A DNA stretch of 64,000 nt from Minwuiaceae bacterium (GTDB lineage Bacteria > Pseudomonadota > Alphaproteobacteria > Minwuiales > Minwuiaceae): the NCBI GenBank assembly GCA_028278525.1, contig JANQEE010000039.1, forward strand, positions 62,001-126,000, written 5' to 3'. The notes beneath the pieces were generated by a model. The model ran no database searches, was not told where the DNA came from, and saw only the letters and a program-made list of their open reading frames with translations. How positions within the stretch are numbered: the first letter of the stretch is position 1; every line of letters starts with the position of its first letter. A program made the translations under genes and the position numbers. Positions 15,636-54,360 of the stretch are shown here, piece by piece.

Positions 15636-16769
15636 TTACTGCGTCAGGGCGGCAAACCGCTTTAGGTGATGATCCGTATTGCCGAACATGGTGTCGATCA
15701 TCATCAGGCGCTTGTAGAAATGCCCGACCTTCAGTTCGTCGGTCATACCCATGCCGCCATGCAACTGGACTGACTGGGCGCCGACGAACTTGCCGGCCTT
15801 GCCGATCTGGGCCTTGGCGCCGGACGCCGCTTTTTTGCGCTCCGCCTCGCCTTCGTCGAGCTTGAGCGTCACCATGTAGGTCATCGAGCGAGACTGCTCC
15901 AGCTCGATGAACATGTCGACCATGCGGTGCTGTAACACCTGGAATTTACCGATCGGCACGCCGAACTGCTTGCGCGTCTTCAGGTATTCGTTCGTCGTAT
16001 CGTGCAACACCTGCATCGCGCCGACCGCCTCCGCGCACAGCGCGGCAATCGCCCGGTCCGTCACGTTCTCGATAACGCCAAGCGCACCGCCGAGATCGCC
16101 AAGCACCGCTTCCGGTCCGGCCTTGACACCGTCCAGCGTCAAATCCGCCGCACGCAGACCGTCGACCGTACGATAGTCGCGCCGGGCAAGGCCGGCCGCA
16201 TCGGCATCGAGCATGAAAAGCGATACGCCGTCCGCATCCCGCTGGCCGCCGCCGGCCCTGGCGGAGACGATGATCTTGTCCGCCGAGGGCGCCCCGAACA
16301 CGACGCTCTTTTTGCCGTTCAGCACGTAGCCGCCGTTCGACGCTTCCGCCGTTGTCGTGATGTCCGCCAGATTGAAGCGCGATTGCGGCTCGGCGAAACC
16401 AAACGCCAACATCATCTCGCCGCCGGCGACCGCCGGCAGAATCTCCTGCTTCTGCGCTTCGCTGCCCGCCGCCTCGACCAGGCCGGCGCCGAGGATGACG
16501 GTCGGCATATAGGGCTCCGCGACCAAGCCGGCACCGAACGCTTCCATCAGGATCATCGTTTCAACCGGGCTGCCGCCAAGCCCGCCGTAGTCTTCCGGTA
16601 ACGGCATGCTGAGCCAGCCAAGCTCGGCGAACTTCGCCCAATTGTCACGGCTGAAGCCGTCGTCGGACGTGACCAGCTTACGCCGCGCGTCGAAATCGTA
16701 TTCGTCCTGCACGAAGCGAACGACGCTGTCCTTGAGCAGAGTCTGCTCGGTGGAAAACGAAAAATCCAT
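15636..16769 (-). CDS. Acyl-CoA dehydrogenase, pimeloyl-CoA dehydrogenase small-subunit type
   Basis: This 377-residue FAD enzyme introduces the alpha-beta double bond into an acyl-CoA. The opening FSFSTEQTLLKDSVVRFVQD, the FGFAEPQSRFNLADI flavin loop and the C-terminal LHGGMGMTDELKVGHFYKRL fit the PimD branch. It follows the large-subunit gene after 50 bases on the same strand, an arrangement matching pimC-pimD of dicarboxylate degradation. The usual catalytic IYEGT motif near the end is replaced by MIDTMFGNTD, as in other small subunits. This suggests that it acts with its partner. The substrate (a dicarboxylyl-CoA or another acyl-CoA) is inferred only. Confidence 0.88.
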   Translation of the reverse strand: MDFSFSTEQTLLKDSVVRFVQDEYDFDARRKLVTSDDGFSRDNWAKFAELGWLSMPLPEDYGGLGGSPVETMILMEAFGAGLVAEPYMPTVILGAGLVEAAGSEAQKQEILPAVAGGEMMLAFGFAEPQSRFNLADITTTAEASNGGYVLNGKKSVVFGAPSADKIIVSARAGGGQRDADGVSLFMLDADAAGLARRDYRTVDGLRAADLTLDGVKAGPEAVLGDLGGALGVIENVTDRAIAALCAEAVGAMQVLHDTTNEYLKTRKQFGVPIGKFQVLQHRMVDMFIELEQSRSMTYMVTLKLDEGEAERKKAASGAKAQIGKAGKFVGAQSVQLHGGMGMTDELKVGHFYKRLMMIDTMFGNTDHHLKRFAALTQ

Positions 16770-16819
16770 CTTCTAGTTGTCCTTCCCTGTACTGATGTCG
16801 TCGATCGCCGATAGGTCCG

Positions 16820-18010
16820 CTACAAGCCCAGGACCATCTTGGCGATGATGTTCTTCTGAATTTCGTTCGAGCCGCCGTAGATCGTGGTCGCCCGCATATA
16901 AAGATGATGCGCCAGGATACCGTCGGCATAGTCCGGGCCCACCGCAGGTTCGTTGCGCCCATGTTCCGGCAGTTCGTACGGATTGGCATAGTAGCCGACA
17001 GCCTCGACCAGCAACTCGTCGATCCGCTGCGTAAGCTCGGCGCCGCGGATCTTCAGCATCGAGGCTTCCGGGCCCGGCGCGCGACCTTCGCTCTCGTCGG
17101 CCAGGGTCCGCAGGTTTGTCATCTCCAATGCGGTAAGGTCGACTTCCGTGTCGGCGATTTTCCGGCTGAAAGCCGAGTCCGTGATAAGCGGAGAACCGTC
17201 GGTTAACTCCGCCCGCGCAATCTCTTTCAGCTTCTCGATCCGCACCTTGGAATCCGCCACGTTGGCAATGCCGGTCCGCTCATGCCCGAGCAGGAATTTG
17301 GCGTAGGTCCAGCCCTTGTTTTCCTCGCCGATCAAGTTGGACCGCGGCACACGCACATTGTCCAGAAAGACCTCGTTGATGCTGTGGCCTTCGTCGATGG
17401 TGATGATCGGCCGGACCGTGATGCCCGGGCTCTTCATATCGATCAGAAGGAAGGAGATGCCTTCCTGCTGCTTGGCGTCCGGGTCGGTGCGAACCAGGCA
17501 GAAGATCCAATCGGCAAAATGCGCGTGAGTGGTCCACACCTTATGGCCGTTGACGATGTAGTCGTCGCCATCCCGTTCCGCTTTGGTACGGAGCGAGGCA
17601 AGGTCGGAGCCGGACCCCGGCTCCGAATAACCCTGGCACCAGAAATGCTCGCCCGAATAGATCTTTGGCAGGTGATAGGCCTTCTGCTCGTCGCTGCCGA
17701 AGGTGAAGATAACCGGCGCGACCATGCTCAGGCCGAAAGGCGACAGCGGCGGCGCCCCGGCCTTGGCGCATTCTTCGTCGAAAATGTACTTCTGTGTAGG
17801 CGACCAATCGATGCCGCCATGCTCCACCGGCCAGTTCGGCGCAAGCCAGCCCTTCGCCGCCAGGGTCTGGTGCCAGGACCGCAAATCCTCTTTCTCAAGA
17901 TGATGGCCGGTCCGCACCTTTTCTGACAGTTCCGACGGCAGGTTCGCCGCGATGAATGCACGCACTTCTTCCCGAAACGCTAATTCCTCAGGCGTAAACG
18001 CGAGATCCAT
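16820..18010 (-). CDS. Acyl-CoA dehydrogenase, pimeloyl-CoA dehydrogenase large-subunit type
   Basis: This 396-residue acyl-CoA dehydrogenase matches the length of PimC. It opens MDLAFTPEELAFREEVRAFI, has the flavin-binding stretch CQGYSEPGSGSDLASLRTKA (about 128-147) and VNGHKVWTTHAHFADW, and ends TTIYGGSNEIQKNIIAKMVL. In that end motif Gly replaces the catalytic Glu of IYEGT-type enzymes. Together with the downstream small subunit it likely forms a heteromeric dehydrogenase for omega-carboxylated or otherwise bulky acyl-CoAs. A PimA-like acyl-CoA ligase lies at 32549, well away, so the pathway is dispersed if it is the pim route. Confidence 0.9.
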   Translation of the reverse strand: MDLAFTPEELAFREEVRAFIAANLPSELSEKVRTGHHLEKEDLRSWHQTLAAKGWLAPNWPVEHGGIDWSPTQKYIFDEECAKAGAPPLSPFGLSMVAPVIFTFGSDEQKAYHLPKIYSGEHFWCQGYSEPGSGSDLASLRTKAERDGDDYIVNGHKVWTTHAHFADWIFCLVRTDPDAKQQEGISFLLIDMKSPGITVRPIITIDEGHSINEVFLDNVRVPRSNLIGEENKGWTYAKFLLGHERTGIANVADSKVRIEKLKEIARAELTDGSPLITDSAFSRKIADTEVDLTALEMTNLRTLADESEGRAPGPEASMLKIRGAELTQRIDELLVEAVGYYANPYELPEHGRNEPAVGPDYADGILAHHLYMRATTIYGGSNEIQKNIIAKMVLGL

Positions 18011-20378: not shown

Positions 20379-20801
20379 TTATGCAACCCCCAGCAAATGG
20401 AGCAAAACCTGGCGCCGGTGCGGGCTTGTCCGATGTTCGAACAGGTAAATGCCCTGCCAGGTCCCCAGCGCCATGCGGCCGGCCTGGACCGGCACGGCGA
20501 GATGCGTCTGCGTCAGCGCCGCGCGGATATGCGCCGGCATGTCGTCCGGCCCCTCGGCCGTATGCCGATAGAGCGACATGTCGTCGGCCACCAACTGCGA
20601 AAAGAAGGCATCCAGGTCGCGCATGACATCCGGATCGGCATTTTCCTGGATCAGCAGGGATGCCGAGGTGTGGCGAAGGAACAGCGTGAGAAGTCCGTCA
20701 CACAGCCCTTGTTCGCCAACCCAATCCGCGATGTAACCGGTGATTTCGGTCAAGCCACGGCCCGGCGTTTGGACCGTCATCTGATGCATCGATTGCTGCA
20801 T
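20379..20801 (-). CDS. yjbQ: YjbQ/UPF0047 family protein (secondary thiamine-phosphate synthase-like)
   Basis: This 140-residue protein is the usual size for the family. Landmarks are LTLFLRHTSASLLIQENADP with the conserved His and Ser, DDMPAHIRAALTQTHLAVPV, and LGTWQGIYLFEHR near the C-terminus. The family forms a trimer with a metal-like site built from those His residues. Escherichia coli YjbQ has weak thiamine-phosphate synthase activity, and the true role is unsettled. It diverges from the homocysteine methyltransferase gene across about 110 bases. Confidence 0.93.
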   Translation of the reverse strand: MQQSMHQMTVQTPGRGLTEITGYIADWVGEQGLCDGLLTLFLRHTSASLLIQENADPDVMRDLDAFFSQLVADDMSLYRHTAEGPDDMPAHIRAALTQTHLAVPVQAGRMALGTWQGIYLFEHRTSPHRRQVLLHLLGVA

Positions 20802-23671: not shown

Positions 23672-25444
23672 CTAGGGCGCGATCGACCACCACGTCGTGA
23701 GCTGATGGCCATACAGCGGCACGACGGCCGGGTGCGCTACGCCATGCCAATAGGCGACCCGCTCCACCGTATCGTGATATAGCGGCACCACGTAATGCGA
23801 CCATAACAGAATGCGATCCAGCGCGCGGGTCGCCGCGATCAGCTCGGGGCGCGTGCGCGCCGCCGTCAGGTGGCCGACCATGGCATCGACCGCCGGGTCG
23901 CGAACCCCGACATAGTTGCGGCTGCCCTCGATACCCGCTTCGGCCGAGCCCCAGTAGTAGAGCTGCTCGCTACCAGGCGAGAGCGATTGGTACCAATCCG
24001 TCAGGATAACGTCGAAATCGAACGCGCGGCGGCGGCGCTCGTATTGCGCCGCATCGGCCGTGCGTATCCGCGCGGCGATGCCCAGCCGTTCCAGATTCTG
24101 TGCAAAGGCCAGCGCAATCCGTTCGTCGCGCGGGTCGGCCAGCAAAATTTCGAACGTTATAAGCCGGCCGGACTTGGCGTCGACGAGCCGACCGTCCCGC
24201 ACCAGCCAGCCTGCCTCGGTCAGCAGTTTGAAGGCCTGCTTCAGGTTGCGGCGGAGACCCGCCGGCCCGTCCGCAAAGGGTGGGGCGTAAGCCGGCCCGA
24301 ACACTTCGTCGGGCACGCGGCCGCGCCACGGCTCCAACAAGGCGAGTTCGCCAGCGCTAGGTGGACCGACGGCCGCGAGATCGGAGTTCGAGAAATAGCT
24401 GGCGCTTTGACGGTACGCGCCGTGAAACAGGCTGCGGTTGGCCCAATCGAAATCGAAGGCGTAGGCCAGCGCGGCGCGGACGCGCGGGTCGGCGAACATC
24501 GGCCGCCGGGTGTTGAAGGCGAAGCCTCGCATACCCTGGGTCAGGCCGTGGATCACCTCCTCCTTGACGACATCGCCGGCGGCCACGGCCGGGAAATCGT
24601 AAAGGGTCGCCCACCGCGCCGGGTCGTGCTCGAATCGCAGGTCGTAATCGCCCGACTTGAACGCCATCAACGCGACCCCCGCGTCGCGGTAATAGGTGTA
24701 GTCGATCCGGTCGAAATTGTAGCGGCCGCGATTGGGCGCGAGGGACAGTCCCCAATAGTCGGAGCGGCGGCGATAGGAGATCAGGCGCCCGGGCTCCAGC
24801 TCGACCACCTCGTAGGGCCCACTGCCTGGGATGGCGTCCAGGCCGGTACGTTCGAAATCCCGCCCGGCAAAGAAGTGTTTCGGCAGAATCGGCATCAACC
24901 CGAGGATCAGAGCAAGTTCCCGGTTTTCGCCCGAGCCGAAGTCGAACTTCACCTTGTTCGGGCCGGGCCGCGTAACCGACGTCACCTGACGATAGAACAG
25001 TCGGTGGTTGGGCCGCCCTTTGCTCCGCAGCGTTTTGTAGGTGAACACCACGTCGTCGACGGTGACGGGTTTGCCGTCGGAGAACCGCGCCTCCGGCCGC
25101 AGCGTGAAGGTAATCCAACTGCGGTCCGGCGCGACATCAACAGATCCGGCCAGCAGGCCGTACAGCGAAAACGGCTCGTCCTGCGAGCGCGCCATCAGGG
25201 ATTCGAACGTCAGCCCCAAGCCCTTCGCCGCCTCTCCCTTGATGATGAAGGGGTTGAGCGAATCGAAACCGCCGATCGCCGCCAGTCTTAGCCGTCCGCC
25301 CTTCGGCGCATTGGGATTGACGTAGTCGAAATGGGCGAAGCCCGGCGGGTATTTCGGTTCGCCGTGCATGGCGATACCATGGGTATCGGCCCGTGCGGCG
25401 ACCGCACCCACCAACAGAATCACCAGCAACACCAACCCGCGCAT
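23672..25444 (-). CDS. Extracellular solute-binding protein, family 5 (YejA-like)
   Basis: This 590-residue periplasmic protein binds peptides or similar large solutes for an ABC importer. A signal peptide covers residues 1-19 (MRGLVLLVILLVGAVAARA). The mature start HGIAMHGEPKYPPGFAHFDY with VNPNAPKGGRLRLAAIG is the signature of the YejA/microcin C branch. TFTLRPEARFSDGKPVTVDD is the classic family-5 block. The start at 25444 is taken because the signal peptide begins there; the frame stays open upstream without homology. No permease or ATPase genes adjoin it, so it is an orphan binding protein here. Confidence 0.9.
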   Translation of the reverse strand: MRGLVLLVILLVGAVAARADTHGIAMHGEPKYPPGFAHFDYVNPNAPKGGRLRLAAIGGFDSLNPFIIKGEAAKGLGLTFESLMARSQDEPFSLYGLLAGSVDVAPDRSWITFTLRPEARFSDGKPVTVDDVVFTYKTLRSKGRPNHRLFYRQVTSVTRPGPNKVKFDFGSGENRELALILGLMPILPKHFFAGRDFERTGLDAIPGSGPYEVVELEPGRLISYRRRSDYWGLSLAPNRGRYNFDRIDYTYYRDAGVALMAFKSGDYDLRFEHDPARWATLYDFPAVAAGDVVKEEVIHGLTQGMRGFAFNTRRPMFADPRVRAALAYAFDFDWANRSLFHGAYRQSASYFSNSDLAAVGPPSAGELALLEPWRGRVPDEVFGPAYAPPFADGPAGLRRNLKQAFKLLTEAGWLVRDGRLVDAKSGRLITFEILLADPRDERIALAFAQNLERLGIAARIRTADAAQYERRRRAFDFDVILTDWYQSLSPGSEQLYYWGSAEAGIEGSRNYVGVRDPAVDAMVGHLTAARTRPELIAATRALDRILLWSHYVVPLYHDTVERVAYWHGVAHPAVVPLYGHQLTTWWSIAP

Positions 25445-25540
25445 TGCCGCACCAAACCCCACCGACACAGGCCCGGTCAACCGGTGGACGCCACTGCGGG
25501 CATCCGCCATATTGCCGGGCCCGAAACGGAGACAACGGCC

Positions 25541-26437
25541 ATGGCCGACATATTGCGCACCCCCGACGAGCGTTTCGCCGATCTTCCCGGCTTCGACTTC
25601 GCACCCAATTATGTCGAAAACTTGCCCGGCTACGACGGTATGCGGATGCATTACCTGGACGAAGGGCCGGCGGACGCCGAGCATGTCTTCCTATGCCTGC
25701 ACGGGCAACCGAGTTGGAGCTACCTCTACCGCAAGATGATCCCGGTCTTCACGGCGGCCGGCCACCGCGCGGTGGCGCCGGATTTCTTCGGCTTCGGCCG
25801 GTCCGACAAGCCCGTGGCGGACGAGACCTATACCTTCGATTTCCATCGCGACGCGATCCTGCGTTTCATCGAACAGTTGGATCTTCGCAACATCACTTTG
25901 GTCGGGCAGGACTGGGGCGGCGTCATTGGCCTCACCTTGCCGATGGAAATGCCGGAGCGTTTCTCGCGCCTGATCGTCATGAACACGGCGCTCAGCACGG
26001 GCGACTTCCCGCTCGGCGAGGGCTTTCTGGCCTGGCGCGCCTTCTCCAACGCCAACCCGGACCTGGATATCGCCGCACTGATGGCGCGCGCCACGCCGAT
26101 TTTGACACCGGAAGAAGCCGCGGCCTACGCCGCGCCATTTCCCGACCAAAGCTACAAGGCGGGCGTCCGTCGCTTTCCCAATCTGGTGCCGGACAACCCG
26201 GACGCGGGCGGCGCTGCCACCTCGCGGCGTGCGCGCGACTGGTGGGGATCGGAATGGAACGGCCAGAGCTTCATGGCGATCGGCATGCAAGACCCGGTGC
26301 TGGGTGCGCCAGCGATGCACGCCCTGGCCAAGCTGATCAAAGGCTGTCCGGCGCCGCTGGAAATAGCGGAAGCCGGCCATTTCGTTCAAGAATGGGGCGA
26401 CCAGGTCGCGCAACAAGCGTTGGAGGCCTTCGGGTGA
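25541..26437 (+). CDS. Haloalkane dehalogenase-like alpha/beta hydrolase (HLD-I, DhlA-like)
   Basis: This 298-residue enzyme is predicted to replace a halogen on an alkyl chain with a hydroxyl, releasing halide. All expected residues are present: nucleophile D124 and halide-binding W125 in VGQDWGG, a second candidate halide Trp at 165, acid D251 (GMQDPVLG) and base H280 (AGHFVQEWG). The oxyanion stretch is LHGQPSWSYLYRKM, and FGFGRSDKP follows. The block AAPFPDQSYKAGVRRFPNLV and the C-terminal acid position place it with DhlA rather than LinB or DhaA. The ATG at 25541 begins the homology. Its stop overlaps the next start as GTGA. Epoxide hydrolase is the alternative, but the QDW motif argues against it. 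Confidence 0.88.
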   Translation: MADILRTPDERFADLPGFDFAPNYVENLPGYDGMRMHYLDEGPADAEHVFLCLHGQPSWSYLYRKMIPVFTAAGHRAVAPDFFGFGRSDKPVADETYTFDFHRDAILRFIEQLDLRNITLVGQDWGGVIGLTLPMEMPERFSRLIVMNTALSTGDFPLGEGFLAWRAFSNANPDLDIAALMARATPILTPEEAAAYAAPFPDQSYKAGVRRFPNLVPDNPDAGGAATSRRARDWWGSEWNGQSFMAIGMQDPVLGAPAMHALAKLIKGCPAPLEIAEAGHFVQEWGDQVAQQALEAFG

Positions 26438-26859
26438 GCGGAGCGGACACCGCCGACGTGGAGGTGCCGGACGGGTTCAAACTAATGACTCGGCCCGGCG
26501 GCTTCGAGGAACTGATCGGGCCGATTTACGGCCGCAAGGATTCGGACGACCAATATCGCCTTGCTTTTCGCGCGGCGCCTCGCCACACCAACCCACAGGG
26601 TGTAATCCATGGCGGCATGATGATGACCGTGCTGGACGCCACGCTCGGCATCGCGGTTTACCGGGTCATCGGCAAGAAGCGCTGCGCGACGGTCAGCCTG
26701 AACTGCAACTTCGTGGCCAGCGGCCAAATCGGCGACTGGCTGGAAACGACCGCGACCATAGTCCGCCGCGGCCGGTCCGTCGTGTTCATGCGCGGCGAAC
26801 TAATGTGCGGCGACCGTCTACTGATGACCGGCGACGGAGTCTGGAAGGTTATGGGTTAG
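26434..26859 (+). CDS. Hot-dog fold thioesterase (PaaI-like)
   Basis: This 141-residue protein hydrolyses acyl-CoA thioesters, or at least has that fold. The active-site helix is HTNPQGVIHGGMMMTVLDAT, matching the HGG and Asp/Glu pattern of PaaI-type enzymes. CATVSLNCNFVASGQIGDWL forms the following strand pair. The start is a GTG overlapping the dehalogenase stop by four bases, so both are made from one message by translational coupling. Its end overlaps the convergent isomerase gene by four bases. Substrate is unknown; pairing with a dehalogenase is unusual and suggests the product chain enters CoA metabolism. Confidence 0.85.
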   Translation: MSGADTADVEVPDGFKLMTRPGGFEELIGPIYGRKDSDDQYRLAFRAAPRHTNPQGVIHGGMMMTVLDATLGIAVYRVIGKKRCATVSLNCNFVASGQIGDWLETTATIVRRGRSVVFMRGELMCGDRLLMTGDGVWKVMG

Positions 26860-27704
26860 CCCCGCTTCCGCACTAGCTTGCGCGGCGGTAGCAGGTCGGC
26901 GAATTCGGCGCTTTCTTTCGCCTTGTTGGCCTGCATCTGGACCATCAGATCGTCAGTGAGCAACATGCCCGACTGCCAGACCGACATGTAGTTGAGCGCG
27001 TCGGCGACGGAGTGGTCCCGGGTGTAGTTCAGCATCTCCTTGGTGCCGACGATGGCGAGCGGCGACTTCGCCGCGATCTCCCGCGCAACCGCCATAACGA
27101 CGTCTAGCATCGCATCCGCGGACTCGTAGACGTCGTTCACCAGGCCGATTTCCTTCGCCTCGTCCGCGTACATGCGGCGGCCGGTATAGGCCAGTTCGCG
27201 CACCTTGCCCGAGGGGATCAGATGCGGCAGCCGCTGCAGCGTGCCGACATCGGCGGTCATGCCGATATTGATTTCCTGGATGCAGAAGAACGCGTCCTCG
27301 GTGCAATAGCGCATATCGCAGGCGGAGATGAGGTCGACGCCGCCGCCGATGCAGCCGCCCTGCACCGCCACCAGCACCGGCAGACGGCAGTTTTCGATCG
27401 CGTTAAAGCTCTCCTGCATCTCCAGCACCGAGGTGCGAAGCTGCTCCCGTACACGGCCGGCTTCTTCTTTCGGGGCGGCGCCGGCGATCTCGGCAAAGGC
27501 GTTGAGATCCAGCCCGGCGGTAAAGTGCTTGCCGGTCGAGGAGATGACCACGGCCCGCGCGGACGGCTCCGACCCGATCTCGGCGAACACGTCGACGAAT
27601 TCCTGCCACATCGGCAGGATCATGGTGTTGAGCTGGTCCGGCCGCGACAGCCGAACATGCGCGACGTGGTCGGCGACTTCCAGGGTCAGGGTCTCGTAAG
27701 CCAT
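26856..27704 (-). CDS. Crotonase, delta(3,5)-delta(2,4)-dienoyl-CoA isomerase type
   Basis: This 282-residue crotonase moves conjugated double bonds in odd-positioned unsaturated fatty acyl-CoAs. The residues D124 (GGGVDLISACD), E144 (CIQEINIG) and D152 (TADVGTLQRLP) keep exactly the spacing (20 and 8) of the three acidic active-site residues of mammalian ECH1. CoA-binding STGKHFTAGLDL lies around residue 57. The ATG at 27704 has GGAGGA upstream; a longer open frame begins earlier without homology. The function matches the several beta-oxidation genes in the window, but the gene stands alone between convergent and divergent neighbours. Confidence 0.9.
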   Translation of the reverse strand: MAYETLTLEVADHVAHVRLSRPDQLNTMILPMWQEFVDVFAEIGSEPSARAVVISSTGKHFTAGLDLNAFAEIAGAAPKEEAGRVREQLRTSVLEMQESFNAIENCRLPVLVAVQGGCIGGGVDLISACDMRYCTEDAFFCIQEINIGMTADVGTLQRLPHLIPSGKVRELAYTGRRMYADEAKEIGLVNDVYESADAMLDVVMAVAREIAAKSPLAIVGTKEMLNYTRDHSVADALNYMSVWQSGMLLTDDLMVQMQANKAKESAEFADLLPPRKLVRKRG

Positions 27705-27804
27705 GGCGGCGCTCCTCCGGTAGCGGCTGGTCCTCGCGGTTTTAGCACGGCGGCGTCCGGCGATCACCTTGACTCGCCCGCGGCGCCCCGGCACTAGAGA
27801 TGCC

Positions 27805-28929
27805 ATGACCAGACAAACTGAACGCATCCCCTTGATGGCGCCAAGCCCGGGCACGACCCGGGATTTGGTAGTCCATCGCTTCGGCGCGGCCGGCGCGCGG
27901 CCGAAAGCCTATATCCAGGGCTCACTGCATGCCGACGAACTGCCCGGCGGTCTAGTAGCGCATCATCTGGGCGGACTGCTCGATAAGGCCGAGGTCACCG
28001 GCGAGATCGTGCTGGTGCCCGCCGCCAACCCGATCGGGCTGGACCAGCGGGTGCTGGGCCATCATTTCGGCCGCCACTTCGGCGGCACCGGCGACAACTT
28101 CAATCGCGGCTATCCGGATCTGACGGACGCGGTTGTCGAACGGGTCGAAGGCCGCATTAGCCCCGACCAAGCAACGAACGCCGATCTGATCCGCGCCGCG
28201 ATGACGGCTGCCGTGGCGGACCTGGAACCGACAACCGAACTGGATACATTGCGCTTCACGCTGATGCGCCTCGCCGCCGACGCCGACATCGTGCTGGATT
28301 TGCACTGCGATCAGGAGGCGGAGCTTTACATCTATCTGGGCGAGGACCTGTGGCCCGACGCGCGCGACCTTTCGGCGGATCTGGGCGCCGTCTCGACGCT
28401 GTTGGCGCTGGACTCCGGCGGCGGGTCGTTCGACGAAGCGTTCAGCCTGCCCTGGTGGAACCTGAAACAGCGGTTTCCCGACATGCCGATCCCGGCCGGC
28501 TGCCTGTCGACCACGGTGGAACTTCGCGGCAGTGCCGACGTCTACGACTATCTCGCGGCGCAGGACGCGGCCGGCCTGTTCCGGTTTCTGCAACGCCGCG
28601 GCCTGGTCGCCGGCGACCCGGGCCCGATGCCGGACCTGATCGCCGAGGCCACGCCGCTCACCGGCTGCGACATGGTCCGCGCACCGGTCGGTGGCATCGT
28701 CGCTTATCGGCGCGAACTCGGCGAGATCGTGGCGGCCGGCGACGTGATTGCCGAGATTGTCGACCAGACGGCGGCGCCGGATCAGGCGCGCACACCGGTC
28801 ACCACCCGTACGGCCGGGCGGCTGTTCAGCCGCAGCGACAATCGTTGGGCCCGACCGGGACAACCGATCGCCAAGGTTGCGGGCGCAGAACCGCTGCCGG
28901 ACGCGGGCGACTATCTTTTGTCCGACTGA
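27805..28929 (+). CDS. Succinylglutamate desuccinylase/aspartoacylase family deacylase
   Basis: This 374-residue zinc hydrolase of the M14-related AstE/AspA family cleaves an N-acyl group or an N-terminal amino acid amide. The zinc ligands H42 and E45 are in GSLHADELPGG and the third His is in VLDLHCDQEAEL. DNFNRGYPDL provides the substrate Arg. The C-terminal 90 residues form a separate beta-rich domain (DMVRAPVGGIVAYRRELGEI), as in the predicted-deacylase branch used for ectoine, N-acyl amino acids or glutathione conjugates. The exact substrate cannot be read. The start at 27805 is the second in-frame ATG; it has poor ribosome sequence in either case. Confidence 0.85.
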   Translation: MTRQTERIPLMAPSPGTTRDLVVHRFGAAGARPKAYIQGSLHADELPGGLVAHHLGGLLDKAEVTGEIVLVPAANPIGLDQRVLGHHFGRHFGGTGDNFNRGYPDLTDAVVERVEGRISPDQATNADLIRAAMTAAVADLEPTTELDTLRFTLMRLAADADIVLDLHCDQEAELYIYLGEDLWPDARDLSADLGAVSTLLALDSGGGSFDEAFSLPWWNLKQRFPDMPIPAGCLSTTVELRGSADVYDYLAAQDAAGLFRFLQRRGLVAGDPGPMPDLIAEATPLTGCDMVRAPVGGIVAYRRELGEIVAAGDVIAEIVDQTAAPDQARTPVTTRTAGRLFSRSDNRWARPGQPIAKVAGAEPLPDAGDYLLSD

Positions 28930-29112: not shown

Positions 29113-29967
29113 ATGGCCGTTGAGTACGACAAGTTGATGGCGCTGGAAGGCGAAGAGAAGGAATTCAGTTACACCGACCGGGAGACGATGCTGTATGCGG
29201 TCGGCATCGGCATGGGCTGCGACCCGATGAACCGCGACGAACTGCCGTTTGTGTTCGAAAAAAACCTGACGCCGGTGCCAACAATGGCCACCGTACTTGC
29301 CTGGGACGAAACGCTGATGATGGCCAGCGGCCTGAACCTGGTGATGGTGGTGCATGGCGAACAGCGGATTACGCTGCATCGGCCGTTGCCGTCGGCGGCG
29401 ACCATTCTGGTCAAACAGCGCGTGGTCGACGCCTTCGATAAAGGCGAGGGCCGCGGCGCGCTGGTCCTGGTCGAAACGGCCATCAGGGAAAAGGCCAGTG
29501 GCGAGCCGCTCTGCACCAACCTGTCGACCGTGTTCGCGCGCGGCGACGGCGGTTTCGGCGGACCGGCCGGCTCCGGCCCGGCGCCGCATCAACTGCCAGA
29601 CCGGGATCCAGATGCGGTCTGCGACCTGAAAACCACGCCGAACCAAGCATTGATCTACCGGCTGTGCGGCGACCGCAACCCGCTGCACGCCGATCCCGAC
29701 TTCGCCGATGCAGCTGGTTTTCCGCGGCCGATCCTGCATGGACTGTGTACCTATGGGAGCGCCTGCCGCGCCGTTCTGAAATCAATGTGCGACTATCAGG
29801 CGGCATCAATCACGGGCTTCGAAGCGCGGTTCACCGCGCCGGTCTTCCCCGGTGAGTGGATCCGCACCGAAATGTGGCGCGATGGGAACGAGATTTCGTT
29901 CCGCAGCAATATTCCGGAACGCGAAGTCATCGCGCTGAACAATGGCAAGGCAACCCTGGCGGCCTGA
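29113..29967 (+). CDS. MaoC-family double hot-dog enoyl-CoA hydratase
   Basis: This 284-residue protein is of the hydratase-2 kind, hydrating trans-2-enoyl-CoA to the (R)-3-hydroxyacyl-CoA. The N-terminal hot dog (residues 1-130) lacks catalytic residues. The C-terminal one has the hydratase-2 motif YRLCGDRNPLHADPDFADAA with the Asp/His pair and GFPRPILHGLCTYG. The same arrangement is found in the hydratase domain of peroxisomal multifunctional enzyme 2. GGGAGGACCG precedes the ATG. The long palindrome upstream separates it from the deacylase gene, so it is probably transcribed alone. Confidence 0.92.
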   Translation: MAVEYDKLMALEGEEKEFSYTDRETMLYAVGIGMGCDPMNRDELPFVFEKNLTPVPTMATVLAWDETLMMASGLNLVMVVHGEQRITLHRPLPSAATILVKQRVVDAFDKGEGRGALVLVETAIREKASGEPLCTNLSTVFARGDGGFGGPAGSGPAPHQLPDRDPDAVCDLKTTPNQALIYRLCGDRNPLHADPDFADAAGFPRPILHGLCTYGSACRAVLKSMCDYQAASITGFEARFTAPVFPGEWIRTEMWRDGNEISFRSNIPEREVIALNNGKATLAA

Positions 29968-32548: not shown

Positions 32549-34255
32549 ATGACAGAACATCCTTGGATTAAGTCCTACCCTGCCGGCGCCCGTTGGGACG
32601 TCGAGATTCCATCAGGCCCGATCTATGGCCTGTTGGACGAAGCGGTCCGTAAATGGCCGGACAATGTGGCGATCGACTTCCTGGACAAGAAGCTGACCTA
32701 TCGGGAGGTCGCCGAGTTGGTCGACCGCGCCGCCAAGGGATTTCAGGAAATCGGCGTCGGCCCCGGCGTGCATGTCGGCATGTTCCTGCCGAACACGCCG
32801 CATTTCGTGGTCGCTTTCTTCGGCGTGCTTAAAGCCGGCGGCACGGTGGTGAATTACTCACCGCTGGACGCGGAGCAGACGCTCAAACACAAGATTGAGG
32901 ATAGCCAAACCGACATCGTGGTGACGCTGTCGCTCAACGCGCTCTATCCGATGATGTCCAAGCTGATGGCGTCGACGCGACTGAAGAAACTGGTCGTCGG
33001 GTCCCTGCAGGAAATGCTGCCGTTCCCGAAAAGCCTGCTGTTCCCGCTGGTCAAGGGCAAGGAAATCGCCAAGTTTCCGGCCGACGATCAGCATGTCACC
33101 TTCAAGCAGTTGATTACCAACGACGGAACCTACCGTCCGGTCGAAGTCGGCGACCCCGCCGACACGGTCGCCGTGCTGCAATATACCGGCGGCACCACCG
33201 GCCTGCCGAAAGGCGCGATGCTGACCCACGCCAACCTTATGGCCGCCTACAACCAGGTAAAGCTGTTCGGCGAAGGCGATCAGAAGGTGCTGGAGGACGG
33301 CAAGGAGCGGGTGTTGGCCGTGCTGCCGCTGTTCCACATCTATGCGCTGACCATCAACATGCTGCTCGGCGTCGGTGGCGGATCTGAGATGGTGCTGCAT
33401 CCGCGTTTCGAACTGGATGCGGTGATCAAGGATCTGGACAAAAAGAAGCCGACCGTCTTCCCCGGCGTGCCGACCATGTACACGGCGATCATCAACCACC
33501 CGGATATTGCCAAGTACGACCTGTCGTCGTTGAAGTTCTGCGCCTCCGGCGGCGCACCGCTGCCGGCGGAAGTGCAACAGAAGTTCCAGGACGTCACCGG
33601 CTGCAAGCTGGTCGAAGGCTGGGGCATGACGGAAACCTCGCCGTCGGGGACCTCGACGCCGCTCTACGGCGTGTCAAAACCTGGCTCCTGCGGCATTCCC
33701 CTGCCCGGCATCACAATCAAGATCTTCGATCTGGATACCTCAACCCAGGAGATGCCGCTCGGCGAGACCGGCGAAATCTGCATCAAGGGCCCGAACGTGA
33801 TGAAGGGCTACTGGCAGAAACCTGACGCGACGGCGGAGGCGTTCAATTCGCAGGGCTACTTCCGCACGGGTGACACGGGCTACATCGACGAGGACGGCTA
33901 CGTATTCATCGTCGATCGTCTGAAGGACATGATCCTCTGCGGCGGGTTCAACGTCTATCCGCGCAACGTCGAAGAGGCGATCTACCAGCACCCCTCAGTC
34001 GAGGAAGTGACGGTGATCGGCATCCCCGACGACTACCGCGGTCAGGCGCCGAAGGCGTTCATCAAGCTGAAGGAAGGCGCCGACCCGTTCACCTTCGACG
34101 AGTTGAAGGAGTTCCTGAAGGACAAGCTTGGCAAGCATGAGATGATCAGCGAAATGGACATCCGGCCGGAACTGCCGAAAACCCTGGTCGGCAAGCTGTC
34201 GAAGAAGGAACTGGTCGAAGAGGAAGAACAGAAGCGCGCGCAGTCGGCGGCGTGA
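32549..34255 (+). CDS. Long-chain or dicarboxylic acid-CoA ligase (FadD/PimA-like)
   Basis: This 568-residue AMP-forming ligase activates a carboxylic acid to its CoA thioester using ATP. The ATP motif is YTGGTTGLPKGAML (about residues 215-228). The second core motif is GWGMTETSPSGTSTPLYGVS. The hinge is RTGDTGYIDEDGYVFIVDRL, followed by DMILCGGFNVYPRNVEEAIY, and the late Lys region is LPKTLVGKLSKKEL. A strong bidirectional terminator ends it. Length and the WIKSYPAGARWDVEIP opening match long-chain fatty acid ligases and the dicarboxylate ligase PimA. The adjacent SCP2 gene and carboxylase block suggest that it feeds that pathway. Confidence 0.92.
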   Translation: MTEHPWIKSYPAGARWDVEIPSGPIYGLLDEAVRKWPDNVAIDFLDKKLTYREVAELVDRAAKGFQEIGVGPGVHVGMFLPNTPHFVVAFFGVLKAGGTVVNYSPLDAEQTLKHKIEDSQTDIVVTLSLNALYPMMSKLMASTRLKKLVVGSLQEMLPFPKSLLFPLVKGKEIAKFPADDQHVTFKQLITNDGTYRPVEVGDPADTVAVLQYTGGTTGLPKGAMLTHANLMAAYNQVKLFGEGDQKVLEDGKERVLAVLPLFHIYALTINMLLGVGGGSEMVLHPRFELDAVIKDLDKKKPTVFPGVPTMYTAIINHPDIAKYDLSSLKFCASGGAPLPAEVQQKFQDVTGCKLVEGWGMTETSPSGTSTPLYGVSKPGSCGIPLPGITIKIFDLDTSTQEMPLGETGEICIKGPNVMKGYWQKPDATAEAFNSQGYFRTGDTGYIDEDGYVFIVDRLKDMILCGGFNVYPRNVEEAIYQHPSVEEVTVIGIPDDYRGQAPKAFIKLKEGADPFTFDELKEFLKDKLGKHEMISEMDIRPELPKTLVGKLSKKELVEEEEQKRAQSAA

Positions 34256-34329: not shown

Positions 34330-34629
34330 TTAGTTCAGCACGCTCTGCAGCTTCATGGCGATGCCCATGTTGCCGGATACCTTAAGCTTGCCCATCATGA
34401 ACGCGGTGGTGGCGTCCAGGTCGCCGTTCACCATGCTCATGAAGTCTTCCATGCTCATCGTGATGGTGCACTCCGCCTCGTTATCGTCATTGCTGACGGT
34501 ATTCGGGCTGGAGGCGCCGTCGATGAAGACGATGCCGTCATCGCCGAAATCGAATTTCAAAGTCGCTCCCAGGCCGGAATCGTCGCCCACCCGTTCGCGC
34601 AGGCCTTCGGTCACTTGCTCAAGACTCAT
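34330..34629 (-). CDS. SCP2 sterol-transfer domain protein
   Basis: This 99-residue single-domain protein is the usual length for bacterial stand-alone SCP2 proteins. These bind fatty acyl-CoAs, sterols or terpenoid lipids. The core reads LKFDFGDDGIVFIDG, then ECTITMSMEDFMSMVNGDLD and AFMMGKLKVSGNMGIAMKLQ, the canonical SCP2 ending. Its start lies 84 bases from the promoter-operator at 34713. It diverges from the carboxylase block and may share its control. It most likely solubilises a hydrophobic substrate for the neighbouring acyl-CoA enzymes. Confidence 0.93.
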   Translation of the reverse strand: MSLEQVTEGLRERVGDDSGLGATLKFDFGDDGIVFIDGASSPNTVSNDDNEAECTITMSMEDFMSMVNGDLDATTAFMMGKLKVSGNMGIAMKLQSVLN

Positions 34630-35725: not shown

Positions 35726-36919
35726 ATGATCTACGGCCAAGAACATCTGGAACTACAACGCTCGCTGAAGAAGTTCATCGAACAGGAGATTAACCCCTAC
35801 GTCGACGAATGGGAGGAAGCCGGCATCTTCCCGGCGCACGAGCTGTTCAAAAAGCTCGGCGACCAGGGATACCTCGGCGTCAGCAAGCCAACGGAATTCG
35901 GCGGCATGGGGCTGGACTATTCCTACAGCCTTGCGATGGCCGAAGCGCTTGGCCACGCCCATTGCGGCAGCGTGCCGATGGCGATCGGCGTGCAAACAGA
36001 CATGGCGACGCCGGCACTGGCCAAATTCGGCTCCGACGAGGTGCGCGAGGAATTTCTCAGACCATCCATCTCGGGCGACTACGTCGCGGCCATCGGTGTC
36101 TCGGAAGTCGGCGCCGGGTCGGACGTCGCTTCGATCCGAACCACGGCCGTCAAGGACGGCGACGATTACGTCATCAACGGCGGCAAGATGTGGACGACCA
36201 ATGGCACCCAAGCCGATTGGATCTGCCTGCTGGCCAACACCGGCGACGGCCCGGCGCACCGCAACAAGTCGCTGATTTGTGTACCGACCAAAACGTCGAG
36301 CGTGACCGTCGCGCGCAAGCTGGACAAGCTCGGCATGCGGTCGTCGGACACCGCCGAGTTCTATTTCGAGGACGTGCGCGTGCCGCAGCGCTTCCGCATC
36401 GGCGACGAAGGCGAAGGCTTCACCTACCAGATGCGTCAGTTCCAGGAGGAACGCCTGTGGGCCGCCGGCTCCGCGCTGATCGGCCTGGACCGGGCCATCG
36501 AAGAAACGATTGACTACACGAGGCAGCGCAAAGCGTTCGGCAAATCGATCCTGGATAACCAAGTGGTCCATTTCCGGCTGGCCGAACTGAAGACAGAAGT
36601 CGAATCGCTGCGCTCCCTCACCTACCGTGCCGTCGAAGCCTACATCGGCGGCGAAGACGTCACCGAGCTCGCATCCATGGCGAAACTGAAATGCGGCCGC
36701 ATCACTCGCGAGGTGGCCGATAGCTGCCTGCAGTATTTCGGCGGCATGGGCTTCATGAACGAAACGCCGATTTCGCGCTTCTACCGCGACGGCCGTTTGA
36801 GCTCCATCGGCGGCGGCGCCGACGAGGTGATGCTGGGCATCATCTGCAAATACATGGGCACGCTGCCCACGAGCGGCAGCCGGCCTGCGCCGAAGCCGAC
36901 CGCCGAAGCGGCCGAGTGA
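35726..36919 (+). CDS. Acyl-CoA dehydrogenase, citronellyl-CoA/AtuD-like (copy 1)
   Basis: This 397-residue flavoenzyme desaturates an acyl-CoA. The flavin block is IGVSEVGAGSDVASIRTTAV (about 123-142) and MWTTNGTQADWI. The C-terminal IYEGT site reads SIGGGADEVM, so the catalytic base is expected at the isovaleryl-type position, E242 in FQEERLW. The protein is about three-quarters identical to the product of 38680-39831, and the two copies bracket the carboxylase beta gene. It has an extra 14-residue Pro/Ala tail. Atu-type acyl-CoA dehydrogenases of acyclic terpene degradation are the closest fit known to me; branched-chain substrates are possible too. Confidence 0.9.
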   Translation: MIYGQEHLELQRSLKKFIEQEINPYVDEWEEAGIFPAHELFKKLGDQGYLGVSKPTEFGGMGLDYSYSLAMAEALGHAHCGSVPMAIGVQTDMATPALAKFGSDEVREEFLRPSISGDYVAAIGVSEVGAGSDVASIRTTAVKDGDDYVINGGKMWTTNGTQADWICLLANTGDGPAHRNKSLICVPTKTSSVTVARKLDKLGMRSSDTAEFYFEDVRVPQRFRIGDEGEGFTYQMRQFQEERLWAAGSALIGLDRAIEETIDYTRQRKAFGKSILDNQVVHFRLAELKTEVESLRSLTYRAVEAYIGGEDVTELASMAKLKCGRITREVADSCLQYFGGMGFMNETPISRFYRDGRLSSIGGGADEVMLGIICKYMGTLPTSGSRPAPKPTAEAAE

Positions 36920-36944
36920 GGCAATGCGGTTGAACTCGTTTCAT

Positions 36945-37022
36945 CCCCTCACCCCGACCCTCTCCCCGGGGGAGCGGGAGATTGAAAGCCCTCTCCCCCG
37001 GGGAGAGGGTCGGGGTGAGGGG
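36945..37022. repeat. Perfect inverted repeat (2 x 30 bp), dispersed palindromic element
   Basis: Arms at 36945-36974 and 36993-37022 are exact complements over 30 bases with an 18-base loop. The arm carries CCCTCACCCCGACCCTCTCC, a type of intergenic palindrome widespread in proteobacteria. It lies inside an operon between two genes, and a related, less perfect copy is at 53042-53134. It should form a strong hairpin in the message. Confidence 0.9.
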
Positions 37023-37054
37023 AAAAAACCAACGAATACCCAGAGACCGACTCC

Positions 37055-38668
37055 ATGCCGGTAATCGAATCCCTCATCGATCCGTCGTCGGAGACGTTCA
37101 AGGAAAACCGCGTCGGCATGCTGGCGAAGATCGAGCAGTTCCGCGCGCTAGAGCAGCGGGTGCGCGACGCTTCGGCCAGGGCCGGCGACCGCTTCGAGAA
37201 GCGTGGCCAGATCCTGCCGCGCGAGCGGGTCGCCCGGCTGCTGGACCGCGGCGCGCCGTTCCTGGAGCTTTCGAGCCTGGCCGGTTACAGGATCGACGTC
37301 GACGATCCTGATAAGACCATTCCGGGCGGCAGCCACATTGCCGGCATCGGCTATGTCTCCGGCGTGCGCGCGATGATCGTCGCGACCGACAGCGGCATCG
37401 ACGCCGGCGCAATCGGCGCCATGGGCCGCGAGAAGCTGATGCGGGCCCAGGAGATCTCGCTGGAAAACAAGCTGCCGTTCATCCATCTGGTCGAAAGCGC
37501 CGGCGCCAATCTGCTGAAATACAAGGTCGAAGGTTTCGTCGCCGGCGGCGGCATCTTCTACAATCTGGCGCGGCTTTCGGCGGCCGGCCTGCCGGTGATC
37601 ACAGTCCTGCACGGTTCATCGACCGCGGGCGGCGCCTATATGCCGGGCCTGTCGGACTATGTGATCATGGTGCGCGGCCGGGCCAAGGCTTTCCTCGCCG
37701 GCCCGCCTCTGTTGAAGGCCGCAACCGGCGAAGTCGCGACCGACGAGGAACTGGGCGGCGCAGAAATGCACGCCACCGTCTCCGGATTGGCTGAATATCT
37801 GGCCGAGAGCGACACAGACGGCCTGCGGCTGGCGCGCGAGGTCGTTGCCAAACTGAATTGGAAAACAGCGGCGGCGGCGGATCAGGGGCGCGAGCCGGTT
37901 TACGACCCGGACGAGATCGCCGGCGTGGTGCCCGTGGACTACCGCAAACCCTACGACGTGCATGAGGTGATCGCGCGCATCGTCGACGGCTCCGACTTCC
38001 TGGACTTCAAGCCGCTATACGGAACGCAAACCGTATGCGGCCACGGCGAGATCGAGGGCCACGCGGTCGGCATGATCGGCAACAACGGGCCGATCGACAA
38101 TGAAGGCGCGACCAAGGCGGCGCAGTTCATCCAGCTCTGTTGTCAATCGGATACGCCCATTGTCTACCTGCAGAACACCACCGGCTATATGGTCGGCAAG
38201 CAGTACGAAGCCGGTGGTATGATCAAGCACGGCTCAAAGATGATTCAGGCGGTCGCCAACGCCACCGTGCCGCAGATCACGCTGATGATCGGCGCCAGCT
38301 TCGGCGCCGGCAACTACGGCATGTGCGGCCGTGCCTACGAGCCGCGCTTCTGCTTCAGTTGGCCCAACCTGACCATGGCGGTGATGGGTCCGGAACAGGC
38401 CGCGACGACCATGTCGATCGTCACCGAAGCGAGCCTGAAGCGGCGCGGCCAGGACGTCGATTACGACGAACTGGCCAAGCGCGAGAAGCAGATTATCGAC
38501 ATGTTCTCCGCGCAGTCGGACGCGCTGCACGCCACCGCGCGGCTGCTGGACGACGGCATCATCGACCCGCGCGACAGCCGCAAGGTGCTGGCGCTGACCC
38601 TGGCCGTCTGCCGCGAGGCGGGGGCGCGGACGGTGCATCCCAGCACCTTCGGCGTCGCCCGGATGTAG
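37055..38668 (+). CDS. Acyl-CoA carboxylase beta subunit (geranyl-/methylcrotonyl-CoA carboxylase type)
   Basis: This 537-residue carboxyltransferase moves carboxyl from biotin to an acyl-CoA. N- and C-terminal crotonase-like halves are present. ESAGANLLKYKVEGF lies near 148, GSSTAGGAYMPGLSDYVIM near 190, and the second half has GMIGNNGPIDNEGATKAAQF and IGASFGAGNYGMCGRAYEP. The opening MPVIESLIDPSSETFKENRV, GAPFLELSSLAGYRID and FLAGPPLLKAATGEVATDEE are nearer to geranyl-CoA carboxylase AtuC than to the methylcrotonyl-CoA enzyme, as far as I can judge by eye. The biotin-bearing partner is at 40829. Confidence 0.92.
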   Translation: MPVIESLIDPSSETFKENRVGMLAKIEQFRALEQRVRDASARAGDRFEKRGQILPRERVARLLDRGAPFLELSSLAGYRIDVDDPDKTIPGGSHIAGIGYVSGVRAMIVATDSGIDAGAIGAMGREKLMRAQEISLENKLPFIHLVESAGANLLKYKVEGFVAGGGIFYNLARLSAAGLPVITVLHGSSTAGGAYMPGLSDYVIMVRGRAKAFLAGPPLLKAATGEVATDEELGGAEMHATVSGLAEYLAESDTDGLRLAREVVAKLNWKTAAAADQGREPVYDPDEIAGVVPVDYRKPYDVHEVIARIVDGSDFLDFKPLYGTQTVCGHGEIEGHAVGMIGNNGPIDNEGATKAAQFIQLCCQSDTPIVYLQNTTGYMVGKQYEAGGMIKHGSKMIQAVANATVPQITLMIGASFGAGNYGMCGRAYEPRFCFSWPNLTMAVMGPEQAATTMSIVTEASLKRRGQDVDYDELAKREKQIIDMFSAQSDALHATARLLDDGIIDPRDSRKVLALTLAVCREAGARTVHPSTFGVARM

Positions 38669-38679
38669 GAGACGGATCG

Positions 38680-39831
38680 ATGTTGTTCACGCACGAACAC
38701 CGGGAACTGCAACGCTCGCTGGCCCGTTTCATCGACGACGAGATCAATCCCCACGTCGACGACTGGGAAAAGGCCGGCATCTTCCCGGCGCACGAGGTGT
38801 TCAAGAAGATGGGCGACCTCGGCTTCCTCGGCCTGACCAAGCCGGAGGCGTACGGCGGCGCCGGTCTCGACTATTCCTACAGTGTTGCCCAGGCCGAAAC
38901 GCTCGGCCGCATCCGCTGCGGCGGCGTGCCGATGGCGATCGGCGTGCAGACGGACATGGCAACGCCGGCCCTGGCCAAGTTCGGCTCCGATATTGTCAAG
39001 GAAGAGTTCCTGCGTCCCTCCATCGCCGGCGACTATGTGGCCAGCCTCGGTGTCTCCGAAGTCGGCGCCGGGTCGGACGTCGCATCGATCAAGACCACGG
39101 CGGTCAAGGACGGCGACGACTACGTGATCAACGGCGGCAAGATGTGGACCACCAACGGCACCCAGGCCGACTGGATCTGCACGCTGGCCAACACGTCCGA
39201 CGGGCCGGTGCACCAGAACAAGTCTTTAATCTGCGTGCCGATGAAATCCAAAGGCGTCGAGATCGCCCGCAAGCTGGACAAACTCGGCATGTGGTCGTCC
39301 GACACGGCGCAGATCTTCTTCGAGGACGTGCGCGTGCCGCAACGCTACCGCATCGGCGACGAAGGCAAGGGTTTCACCTACCAGATGCTTCAGTTCCAGG
39401 AAGAACGGCTGTGGGCCGGCGCACGGTCCTGCTCGCTCGGCAATCTGATCGACGAAACCATCGAGTACACGCGCGAGCGCAAGGCGTTCGGCAAATCGAT
39501 CCTCGACAATCAATATGTCCACTTCCGGCTGGCCGAACTGAAGACGGAGGTCGAGGCACTGAAGTCCATGGTCTACCGCGCCACCGAAATGTATGTGAAC
39601 GGCGAGGACGTGACCGAACTCGCCTCCATGGCCAAACTGAAGGCGGGGCGGCTGAGCCGCGAGATCTCCGATTCCTGCCTTCAGTTCTGGGGCGGCATGG
39701 GCTTCATGACCGAGAGCCGGATCAGCCGCGCCTACCGCGACGTCCGGCTCGGTTCCATCGGCGGCGGCGCCGACGAGATCATGCTGTCGATCATTTGCAA
39801 ATACATGGGCACCCTGCCCGGGAAAGCGTGA
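38680..39831 (+). CDS. Acyl-CoA dehydrogenase, citronellyl-CoA/AtuD-like (copy 2)
   Basis: This 383-residue paralogue of the enzyme at 35726 has long identical stretches around the flavin site (DGDDYVINGGKMWTTNG, TQADWIC) and catalytic region (FQEERLW). GGAGACGGATCG before the ATG at 38680 sets the start. It begins eleven bases after the carboxylase beta stop. Differences cluster in the N-terminal 80 residues and around substrate-side helices, so the two copies may act on different steps or chain lengths. The copies might also be a recent tandem duplication. Substrate is inferred from context only. Confidence 0.9.
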   Translation: MLFTHEHRELQRSLARFIDDEINPHVDDWEKAGIFPAHEVFKKMGDLGFLGLTKPEAYGGAGLDYSYSVAQAETLGRIRCGGVPMAIGVQTDMATPALAKFGSDIVKEEFLRPSIAGDYVASLGVSEVGAGSDVASIKTTAVKDGDDYVINGGKMWTTNGTQADWICTLANTSDGPVHQNKSLICVPMKSKGVEIARKLDKLGMWSSDTAQIFFEDVRVPQRYRIGDEGKGFTYQMLQFQEERLWAGARSCSLGNLIDETIEYTRERKAFGKSILDNQYVHFRLAELKTEVEALKSMVYRATEMYVNGEDVTELASMAKLKAGRLSREISDSCLQFWGGMGFMTESRISRAYRDVRLGSIGGGADEIMLSIICKYMGTLPGKA

Positions 39832-39874
39832 GGAGAAAGCATGCCTGGCAAGCCGCTGGACCGCCTCCATTCGC

Positions 39875-39961
39875 CGTCATTGCGAGCGCAGCGAAGCAAT
39901 CTAGAAGGGCGATGCTCTGGCTTTTCCAGATCGCCGCGGCCCTTCGGACCTCGCGATGACG
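39875..39961. repeat. Dispersed repeat with GTCATTGCGAG ends
   Basis: The ends CGTCATTGCGAG and CTCGCGATGACG are inverted copies with one mismatch, and AGCGCAGCGAAGCAAT follows the left end. This is the well-known intergenic element that is scattered through many alphaproteobacterial genomes. It sits between two operon genes, just before the crotonase start. A ribosome site and ATG at 39841 open a 50-codon frame that runs through it and ends over the crotonase start, probably meaningless. Confidence 0.8.
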
Positions 39962-39989
39962 AGTGGGGTCGTCAGGGAGAGACCGAAAC

Positions 39990-40814: not shown

Positions 40815-40828
40815 GGAACGCCCGACGA

Positions 40829-42790: not shown

Positions 42791-42806
42791 AGGTATCACC
42801 GCAGCG

Positions 42807-53024: not shown

Positions 53025-53041
53025 GAGTTGTCTCCCTTTGT

Positions 53042-53134
53042 CCCCTCACCCAACCCTCTCCCCGAGGAGAGGGCTATCGAGCACTCCATTCCGGCCGCGC
53101 TCCCTCTCCCACCGGGAGAGGGTTGGGGTGAAGG
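53042..53134. repeat. Palindromic repeat related to the 36945 element
   Basis: Outer arms (53047-53062 and 53114-53130) are complementary with one extra base, and two short hairpins nest inside (CCCTCTCC over GGAGAGGG at 53054-53073; CCCTCTCCC over GGGAGAGGG at 53102-53122). The left arm matches the arm of the element at 36945 apart from a few changes. It separates the thiolase and fadJ genes. Confidence 0.85.
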
Positions 53135-53151
53135 GCTTAAAAGTGTTGTTC

Positions 53152-54360
<1,209 letters not shown>

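Follow-up and report, generated by a model that had tools for sequence, protein, structure and literature searches.

A putative thioesterase gene recurs beside HLD-I haloalkane dehalogenase genes in part of the Alphaproteobacteria

In a Minwuiaceae genome, the gene of an HLD-I haloalkane dehalogenase (HLD) runs into the start of a gene for a putative hot-dog acyl-CoA thioesterase (TE), which raises the question of what, if anything, the two proteins do together. We studied this locus within a stretch of 64,000 nucleotides (the window; Table 1). According to the excerpt of PMC10503415 consulted here, what haloalkane dehalogenases do biologically remains unclear. The enzyme itself is of a known type, and what is new is its neighborhood, namely a TE at position +1 and a TE-isomerase island. 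A TE recurring beside HLD-I genes well above chance provides a handle on the natural role of these enzymes, and it points to acyl-CoA metabolism, probably that of unsaturated fatty acids. The link is local, the commoner partner of this TE family being a dienoyl-CoA isomerase. Among the matches listed in a literature search, no title dealt with a dehalogenase-thioesterase pair (titles only).

Table 1. Features of the locus, with positions in the window
Feature	Position	Strand	Basis or remark
YjbQ-family gene, recurrent upstream neighbor	20379..20801	-	TIGR00149, 136.8 versus 67.75
Divergent ABC-type solute-binding protein gene	23672..25444	-	PF00496 (scored with longer start)
GGAG, probable RBS of the dehalogenase gene, 9 nt before ATG	25528..25531	+	Direct sequence reading
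HLD-I haloalkane dehalogenase, 298 aa	25541..26437	+	D124, W125, W165, D251, H280; Q56; short cap
GGAGG, probable RBS of the TE gene, inside the dehalogenase gene, 7 nt before GTG	26422..26426	+	Direct sequence reading
GTGA overlap, 4 bp: TE start and dehalogenase stop	26434..26437	+	Sequence
Putative PaaI/THEM2-like hot-dog acyl-CoA thioesterase (TE), 141 aa, GTG start	26434..26859	+	PF03061, TIGR00369, 2hbo
Delta3,5-Delta2,4-dienoyl-CoA isomerase homolog (ECH1-like), convergent, tail overlaps TE by 4 bp	26856..27704	-	NF004794, 8sk6, 2vre, 1dci
AstE/AspA-type deacylase-like gene of the island	27835..28929	+	PF24827 (scored with longer start); recurs
MaoC-type hydratase of the island	29113..29967	+	PF01575, PF22622; recurs
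Acyl-CoA ligase of the island	32549..34255	+	Recurs
SCP2-like small protein of the island	34330..34629	-	NF047962, 22.1 bits, below cut-off 46.9; recurs

The dehalogenase and its relatives

As judged by profile, identity, active-site residues and predicted fold, the window gene is an ordinary HLD-I dehalogenase of the DhlA/DppA branch. Its product scored 372.9 bits with the NF002043 "haloalkane dehalogenase" profile (cut-off 265) and stayed well under the cut-offs of two other dehalogenase models (116.9 for 241 and 88.0 for 466). In a sequence search of solved structures, the best matches were all HLD-I enzymes: DppA of Plesiocystis pacifica (PDB 2xt0; 411 bits), DpaA of Paraglaciecola agarilytica (PDB 7avr; 393 bits) and the 1,2-dichloroethane dehalogenase DhlA (PDB 1b6g; 384 bits). 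The window protein is 59% identical to DhlA and to DppA, the latter over its whole length, and 56% identical to DpaA. The predicted model (mean pLDDT 96.1) has an alpha/beta-hydrolase core with an HLD cap fold and superimposed on DppA with a Z of 49.7 (0.8 A over 296 residues) and on DhlA with a Z of 47.9 (1.3 A over 297 residues).

All three solved enzymes share the catalytic pentad with the window protein. The earlier note had read D124, W125, D251 and H280 as intact and W165 as a candidate, and the alignment with DhlA bears this out: the nucleophile Asp and the adjoining halide-binding Trp fall on D124 and W125 of DhlA, the second halide-binding Trp, of the cap, on W175, the catalytic acid on D260 and the base His on H289. 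The mechanism of DhlA is established: an Asp acts as nucleophile, two Trp residues hold the halide, and a His/Asp couple activates water. Going by these conserved residues and the predicted fold, the nucleophile of the window enzyme would be D124, which would attack an alkyl halide and expel its halide; W125 and W165 would bind this halide as it leaves, and H280, paired with D251, would activate the water that frees the alcohol.

An intact pentad could also accompany a native reaction other than dehalogenation, serving lipid metabolism together with the TE. OleB, an HLD-III-like beta-lactone decarboxylase, is a precedent, and since HLD-III relatives, OleB included, keep their pentad (both from the excerpt of PMC10503415), the pentad kept here is compatible with this reading, as is the lipid-gene setting of the HLD-TE loci. 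However, both HLD-I halide-binding tryptophans are retained, and the six solved HLD-I relatives that we found, three of them at 56 to 59% identity, are without exception named dehalogenases. We consider such a reaction highly improbable.

A quick 127-row tree placed the window protein with DhlA, DppA and DpaA in a group of 114, apart from the 13 other rows, which hold DmrA, DpcA and DccA (100*). A 31-row tree with paralogs as outgroup put the 26 HLD-I rows, the window included, on one side of a branch with weak support (83/48), and an AU test did not reject joining the window protein to an epoxide-hydrolase-like paralog, named by eye and on a very long branch (p = 0.165). The HLD-I assignment is carried by identity and profile scores. 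The identity of the protein as an epoxide hydrolase was rejected on its 59% identity to DhlA and on the profile scores, the small long-branch tree not being decisive.

The window enzyme differs from DhlA in its cap and at position 56. Between DhlA positions 150 and 172 there are 23 residues in DhlA and 13 in the window protein, which in this alignment lacks the cap insert of DhlA. DhlA is the sole carrier of the insert among the six solved relatives; the other five, DppA and DpaA among them, have 11 to 13 residues, as do all sampled rows but two, L190 and L191, which are longer and lie on the other HLD-I side of the tree. Because this insert is tied to the use of 1,2-dichloroethane, that compound is a poor bet as a substrate of the window enzyme.

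At position 56 (DhlA numbering), all six solved enzymes have Glu, whereas the window protein has Gln. Across the 121 loci described below, window included, this residue was Gln in 69, Glu in 41, Asn in 7, His in 3 and Ser in 1. The literature search found no paper combining "haloalkane dehalogenase" and "Glu56". Judging by the HGNP motif of the source genome's own HLD-II protein, the halide-binding Asn of HLD-II and HLD-III enzymes would fall in the same column; this Asn is named as N37 in DadB and as N63 in DhmeA (PMC10503415) in the excerpts consulted. An Asn at position 56 together with both Trp residues would make a halide site of mixed HLD-I/HLD-II type. Eight thioesterase-linked loci do not have Gln at this position (L070, L162, L164, L169, L173, L174, L083 and L176); five of them have Glu and three Asn.

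The earlier note held true HLD-I members near DhlA to be few, which proved wrong. In the whole-genome set, 40 of the 385 class genomes had one at E <= 1e-60, as did 16 of 398 genomes sampled across the phylum at E <= 1e-90 (counting the genome of the window). A scan of species genomes gave at least 594 pattern matches, of which 588 among those listed code for relatives (E <= 1e-3). Of these 588, the best 80 are 57 to 74% identical to the window protein and carry names from several phyla, mostly of metagenome-assembled genomes (MAGs). Plasmid records matching HLD-I at E <= 1e-40 numbered only 26 of 72,556. For the neighborhood study, we assembled 121 loci: the best 80 of the species-genome scan, 40 class loci and the window. 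The class loci comprise 38 of the 43 places found in the 385-genome search (the window's and four others being left out) plus those of G017 and G026. The D-W-W-D-H pentad is present in 114 of the 121.

In four HLD-I relatives of one family (L178, L179, L180 and L183; f76), Glu replaces the nucleophilic Asp (HEWGG) and residue 56 is His or Ser; these proteins perhaps catalyze another reaction. The HLD-I genes of four contigs labeled as Loki-type archaeal MAGs (L023, L031, L037 and L047) share one starred branch, and in three of them Phe replaces the cap Trp.

Recurrence of the thioesterase next to HLD-I genes

The overlap of the dehalogenase stop with the start of a PaaI-like hot-dog gene, also pointed out earlier, is a GTGA. 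By profile and motif, the gene encodes a putative acyl-CoA thioesterase. It scored 62.6 bits with PF03061 (4HBT) and 36.7 with TIGR00369 (cut-off 36.6). Among PaaI/THEM2-type hot-dog thioesterases (2hbo, 4ord and 2pim), the nearest solved chain, 2hbo, gave only 85 bits and is named a hypothetical protein. The HTN...HGG...D pattern aligns with that of THEM2 (4ord), from which type of enzyme we take over the presumed roles of the HGG...D residues.

To see how often the two genes meet, genes were called around all 121 loci and the TE family was sought at six positions on either side. Gene starts and gaps were those of a simple gene caller, into which the window dehalogenase was forced, and the TE profile was built from the cluster seen near HLD loci and so favors such members. 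Of the 120 loci with a gene at +1 (window included), 13 had a same-strand TE in that place, whereas none of the remaining position/strand classes, of which there are 24 in all, held a TE at more than 4 loci. Gaps ranged from -4 to 36 bp by called starts. Ten of the 40 class loci, in six families, were operon-like (L152, L153, L155, L157, L160, L162, L164, L169, L173 and L174); at L173 a short same-strand gene stands between the two, and at L176 the TE lies at +2 behind an opposite-strand gene. Among the 80 scan loci, many of whose contigs stop soon after the HLD gene, a TE was at +1 in three (L024, L070 and L083, the last a weaker match).

In the 38 class loci, we counted 11 TE neighbors at +1 or +2 versus about 0.02 expected from the at least 85 TE family members in the 162 Mb of the 40 HLD-I-bearing class genomes. 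This expectation is rough: it assumes one gene per kb, uses lower-bound counts (no more than 10 candidates were scored per genome) and takes loci as independent, though several are close relatives. The count includes L176, without which there are 10 loci in 6 families besides the window. The HLD-TE coupling thus recurs, far above chance, in part of the class.

Most of the 121 HLD-I loci have no adjoining TE, and the phylum-wide sample added 14 further HLD-I loci, 9 in this class and 5 in other classes, all of them lacking a TE within 1.5 kb. On the HLD tree, 15 rows (counting L176) show the linkage, which takes 7 changes to explain, 3 of them forced by starred branches. On the TE tree, the HLD-linked TEs do not form one clade; 8 changes are needed and starred branches force 2. 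A mirror-tree comparison of all 13 pairs, near relatives included and L083 and L176 left out, gave r = 0.81 (p = 0.0002), and with one pair per lineage (8 pairs) the correlation was not significant (r = 0.44, p = 0.12). Since the linked TEs are not one clade and the per-lineage correlation is not significant, we do not claim coevolution.

The two genes might be mere neighbors, the HLD standing before the TE by chance or on a convenient transcript, with no pathway in common. The patchy linkage on the HLD tree, with its 7 changes, fits this, as do the many other settings in which HLD genes are found and the TEs that hold their place where there is no HLD, among them those of three other members of family f93 (G209, G300 and G377), which keep a TE-isomerase pair and have their dehalogenase elsewhere in the genome. 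It is, however, difficult to reconcile with 11 TE neighbors, 10 of them operon-like, against an expectation of about 0.02, spread over several families and involving TEs of different lineages. We find mere neighborhood unlikely.

In several loci, a tandem pair of different TEs, overlapping in several cases, was seen (L169, L173 and L174; L252 and L254 to L256; L065 and L075), in some with and in some without an adjoining dehalogenase or isomerase. The tandem TEs perhaps form a hetero-oligomer.

The isomerase island and the possible role of the pair

Downstream of the TE and convergent with it lies a homolog of mammalian Delta3,5-Delta2,4-dienoyl-CoA isomerase, which scored 365.7 bits with NF004794 (cut-off 308) and 259 to 262 bits against the solved structures 8sk6, 2vre and 1dci. 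Three acidic residues (Asp, Glu and Asp) align with the active site of 1dci; we take the catalytic residues of the rat enzyme to be Asp 176, Glu 196 and Asp 204. The window protein is bacterial, and its NCBIfam name is only "crotonase/enoyl-CoA hydratase family protein".

A search of the 385 class genomes with this isomerase gave 63 places in 62 genomes, and the DNA around 62 of them (all but G244) was examined. The TE stands tail to tail with the isomerase at 18 of these 62 loci (at L160 a short predicted gene separates the two). Five of the 18 have a dehalogenase upstream (the window, L152, L155, L157 and L160), and 13 have no adjoining dehalogenase (L222 to L227, L236, L237, L247, L252 and L254 to L256). 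Where the isomerase is at least 63% identical, the TE is present in 9 of 9 loci and the dehalogenase in 3 of 9. As the commoner neighbor of the TE is the isomerase, with 13 loci lacking an adjoining HLD, we assign the TE to the acyl-CoA island. The island probably serves unsaturated fatty acids, the dehalogenase joining it only in some lineages. In E. coli, a bacterium devoid of the isomerase, thioesterases clear 3,5-tetradecadienoyl-CoA, a by-product of oleate oxidation (PMC9329746, in excerpt). A TE and an isomerase side by side would therefore make sense without any halogen.

Some of the loci again have MaoC, AspA-like, acyl-CoA ligase, SCP2-like and YjbQ genes around the TE and isomerase; YjbQ was found within six genes at 10 of the 121 HLD loci, and the solute-binding protein gene was a cluster of one in the neighbor comparison. 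The fatty-acid oxidation genes and the TE-isomerase island of the window agree with the acyl-CoA surroundings described in the earlier note. Many more genes, at 15636-18010, 35726-43946 and 50898-60931, were judged by eye to be of acyl-CoA dehydrogenase, crotonase or thiolase-like type and make up a large fatty-acid oxidation region. With such genes around it on a contig of 208,156 bases, the dehalogenase gene is plausibly chromosomal. A recent foreign origin is unsupported by composition: the gene has a GC of 0.641 and a GC3 of 0.803, and ten other named neighbor genes range from 0.60 to 0.68 and from 0.76 to 0.87. Scans of 25300-27900 gave 0 promoter-like and 2 terminator-like sequences versus 0.6 and 1.7 expected from shuffles.

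The coupling had been taken earlier to suggest a chain in which a halogenated or ester-like acid is processed as its CoA ester. In such a chain, the HLD and the TE would act in turn, for instance to release a toxic haloacyl-CoA and remove the halogen. Tight HLD-TE pairs do recur in six families of the class sample, with the enrichment given above, and FlK, a hot-dog enzyme that hydrolyzes fluoroacetyl-CoA, is a precedent. The coupling nevertheless does not support the proposal: the same TE family accompanies the isomerase at the 13 loci lacking an adjoining HLD, most HLD-I loci have no TE, and none of the 14 further loci has one nearby. Moreover, no haloacid, alcohol or aldehyde step was found among the searched genes adjoining the window pair, and haloalkane dehalogenases, whose substrates are neutral haloalkanes, are not known to act on charged acids. 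We hold a chain of this kind to be quite unlikely. Genes recognized by eye as an SDR and as aldo/keto-reductase-like lie downstream in some of the three loci of family f4.

The reading that we favor, with a probability of roughly two in three, is that the HLD-I and TE genes form a two-gene unit whose TE comes from the acyl-CoA/isomerase island and whose dehalogenase feeds the same oxidation route. From the genes, their residues, the predicted fold and the recurrence of the HLD-TE and TE-isomerase pairs, we infer coexpression, a shared process, likely substrates and which of the two pairings is the older. The dehalogenase and the putative thioesterase would be made from the two-gene unit. The TE and the isomerase would handle 3,5-dienoyl-CoA by-products of the beta-oxidation of unsaturated fatty acids, either isomerizing them or hydrolyzing and releasing them. 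The dehalogenase would probably act on hydrocarbons or lipid fragments that carry a halogen, brominated or longer-chain ones being the likeliest, and in some lineages the dehalogenated products may enter the oxidation route of the TE-isomerase island.

Seven HLD-TE loci have no adjoining isomerase (L070, L153, L162, L164, L169, L173 and L174), although the sequence of L153 stops soon after the pair; in genomes G011 and G244, an isomerase lies about 5 and 9 kb from the pair. Such pairs count against our account, because the island alone leaves them unexplained, and because several stand without an adjoining isomerase, a functional HLD-TE link is possible. A bolder version, which we regard as rather improbable, is that in part of the Alphaproteobacteria the HLD-I enzyme and the hot-dog TE are a conserved lipid-metabolism module for the removal of acyl chains that are halogenated or are dead ends for another reason, and that the common Gln56 form, absent from the six solved relatives, may hold the halide by Trp, Trp and a Gln at the place of the HLD-II/III Asn. 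If true, this module would be the natural role so far missing for HLD-I enzymes.

Plasmid-borne relatives and other dehalogenases of the genome

On the one plasmid with a DhlA-type gene that we viewed, pDCA, a transposase gene, not a thioesterase gene, comes after the dehalogenase gene. A "thioesterase family protein" gene lies about 4.7 kb upstream of the dehalogenase on the other strand and was not counted as a pair. Upstream of the dehalogenase on this plasmid of Xanthobacter flavus (L282), phytanoyl-CoA dioxygenase family and thioesterase family genes were observed. For plasmid HLD-I genes of Deinococcus and Roseovarius, the PLSDB gene table, which is incomplete, listed no thioesterase within the 4-kb flanks.

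The source genome encodes a second dehalogenase, of HLD-II type (contig C3, L004:1312-2187, minus strand), which scored 440.3 bits with NF002938 (cut-off 241). A 189-aa frame on another contig (C54, L002:1324-1890, plus strand) matches the same model in its first part, up to position 100 of 298, and looks like a truncated dehalogenase.
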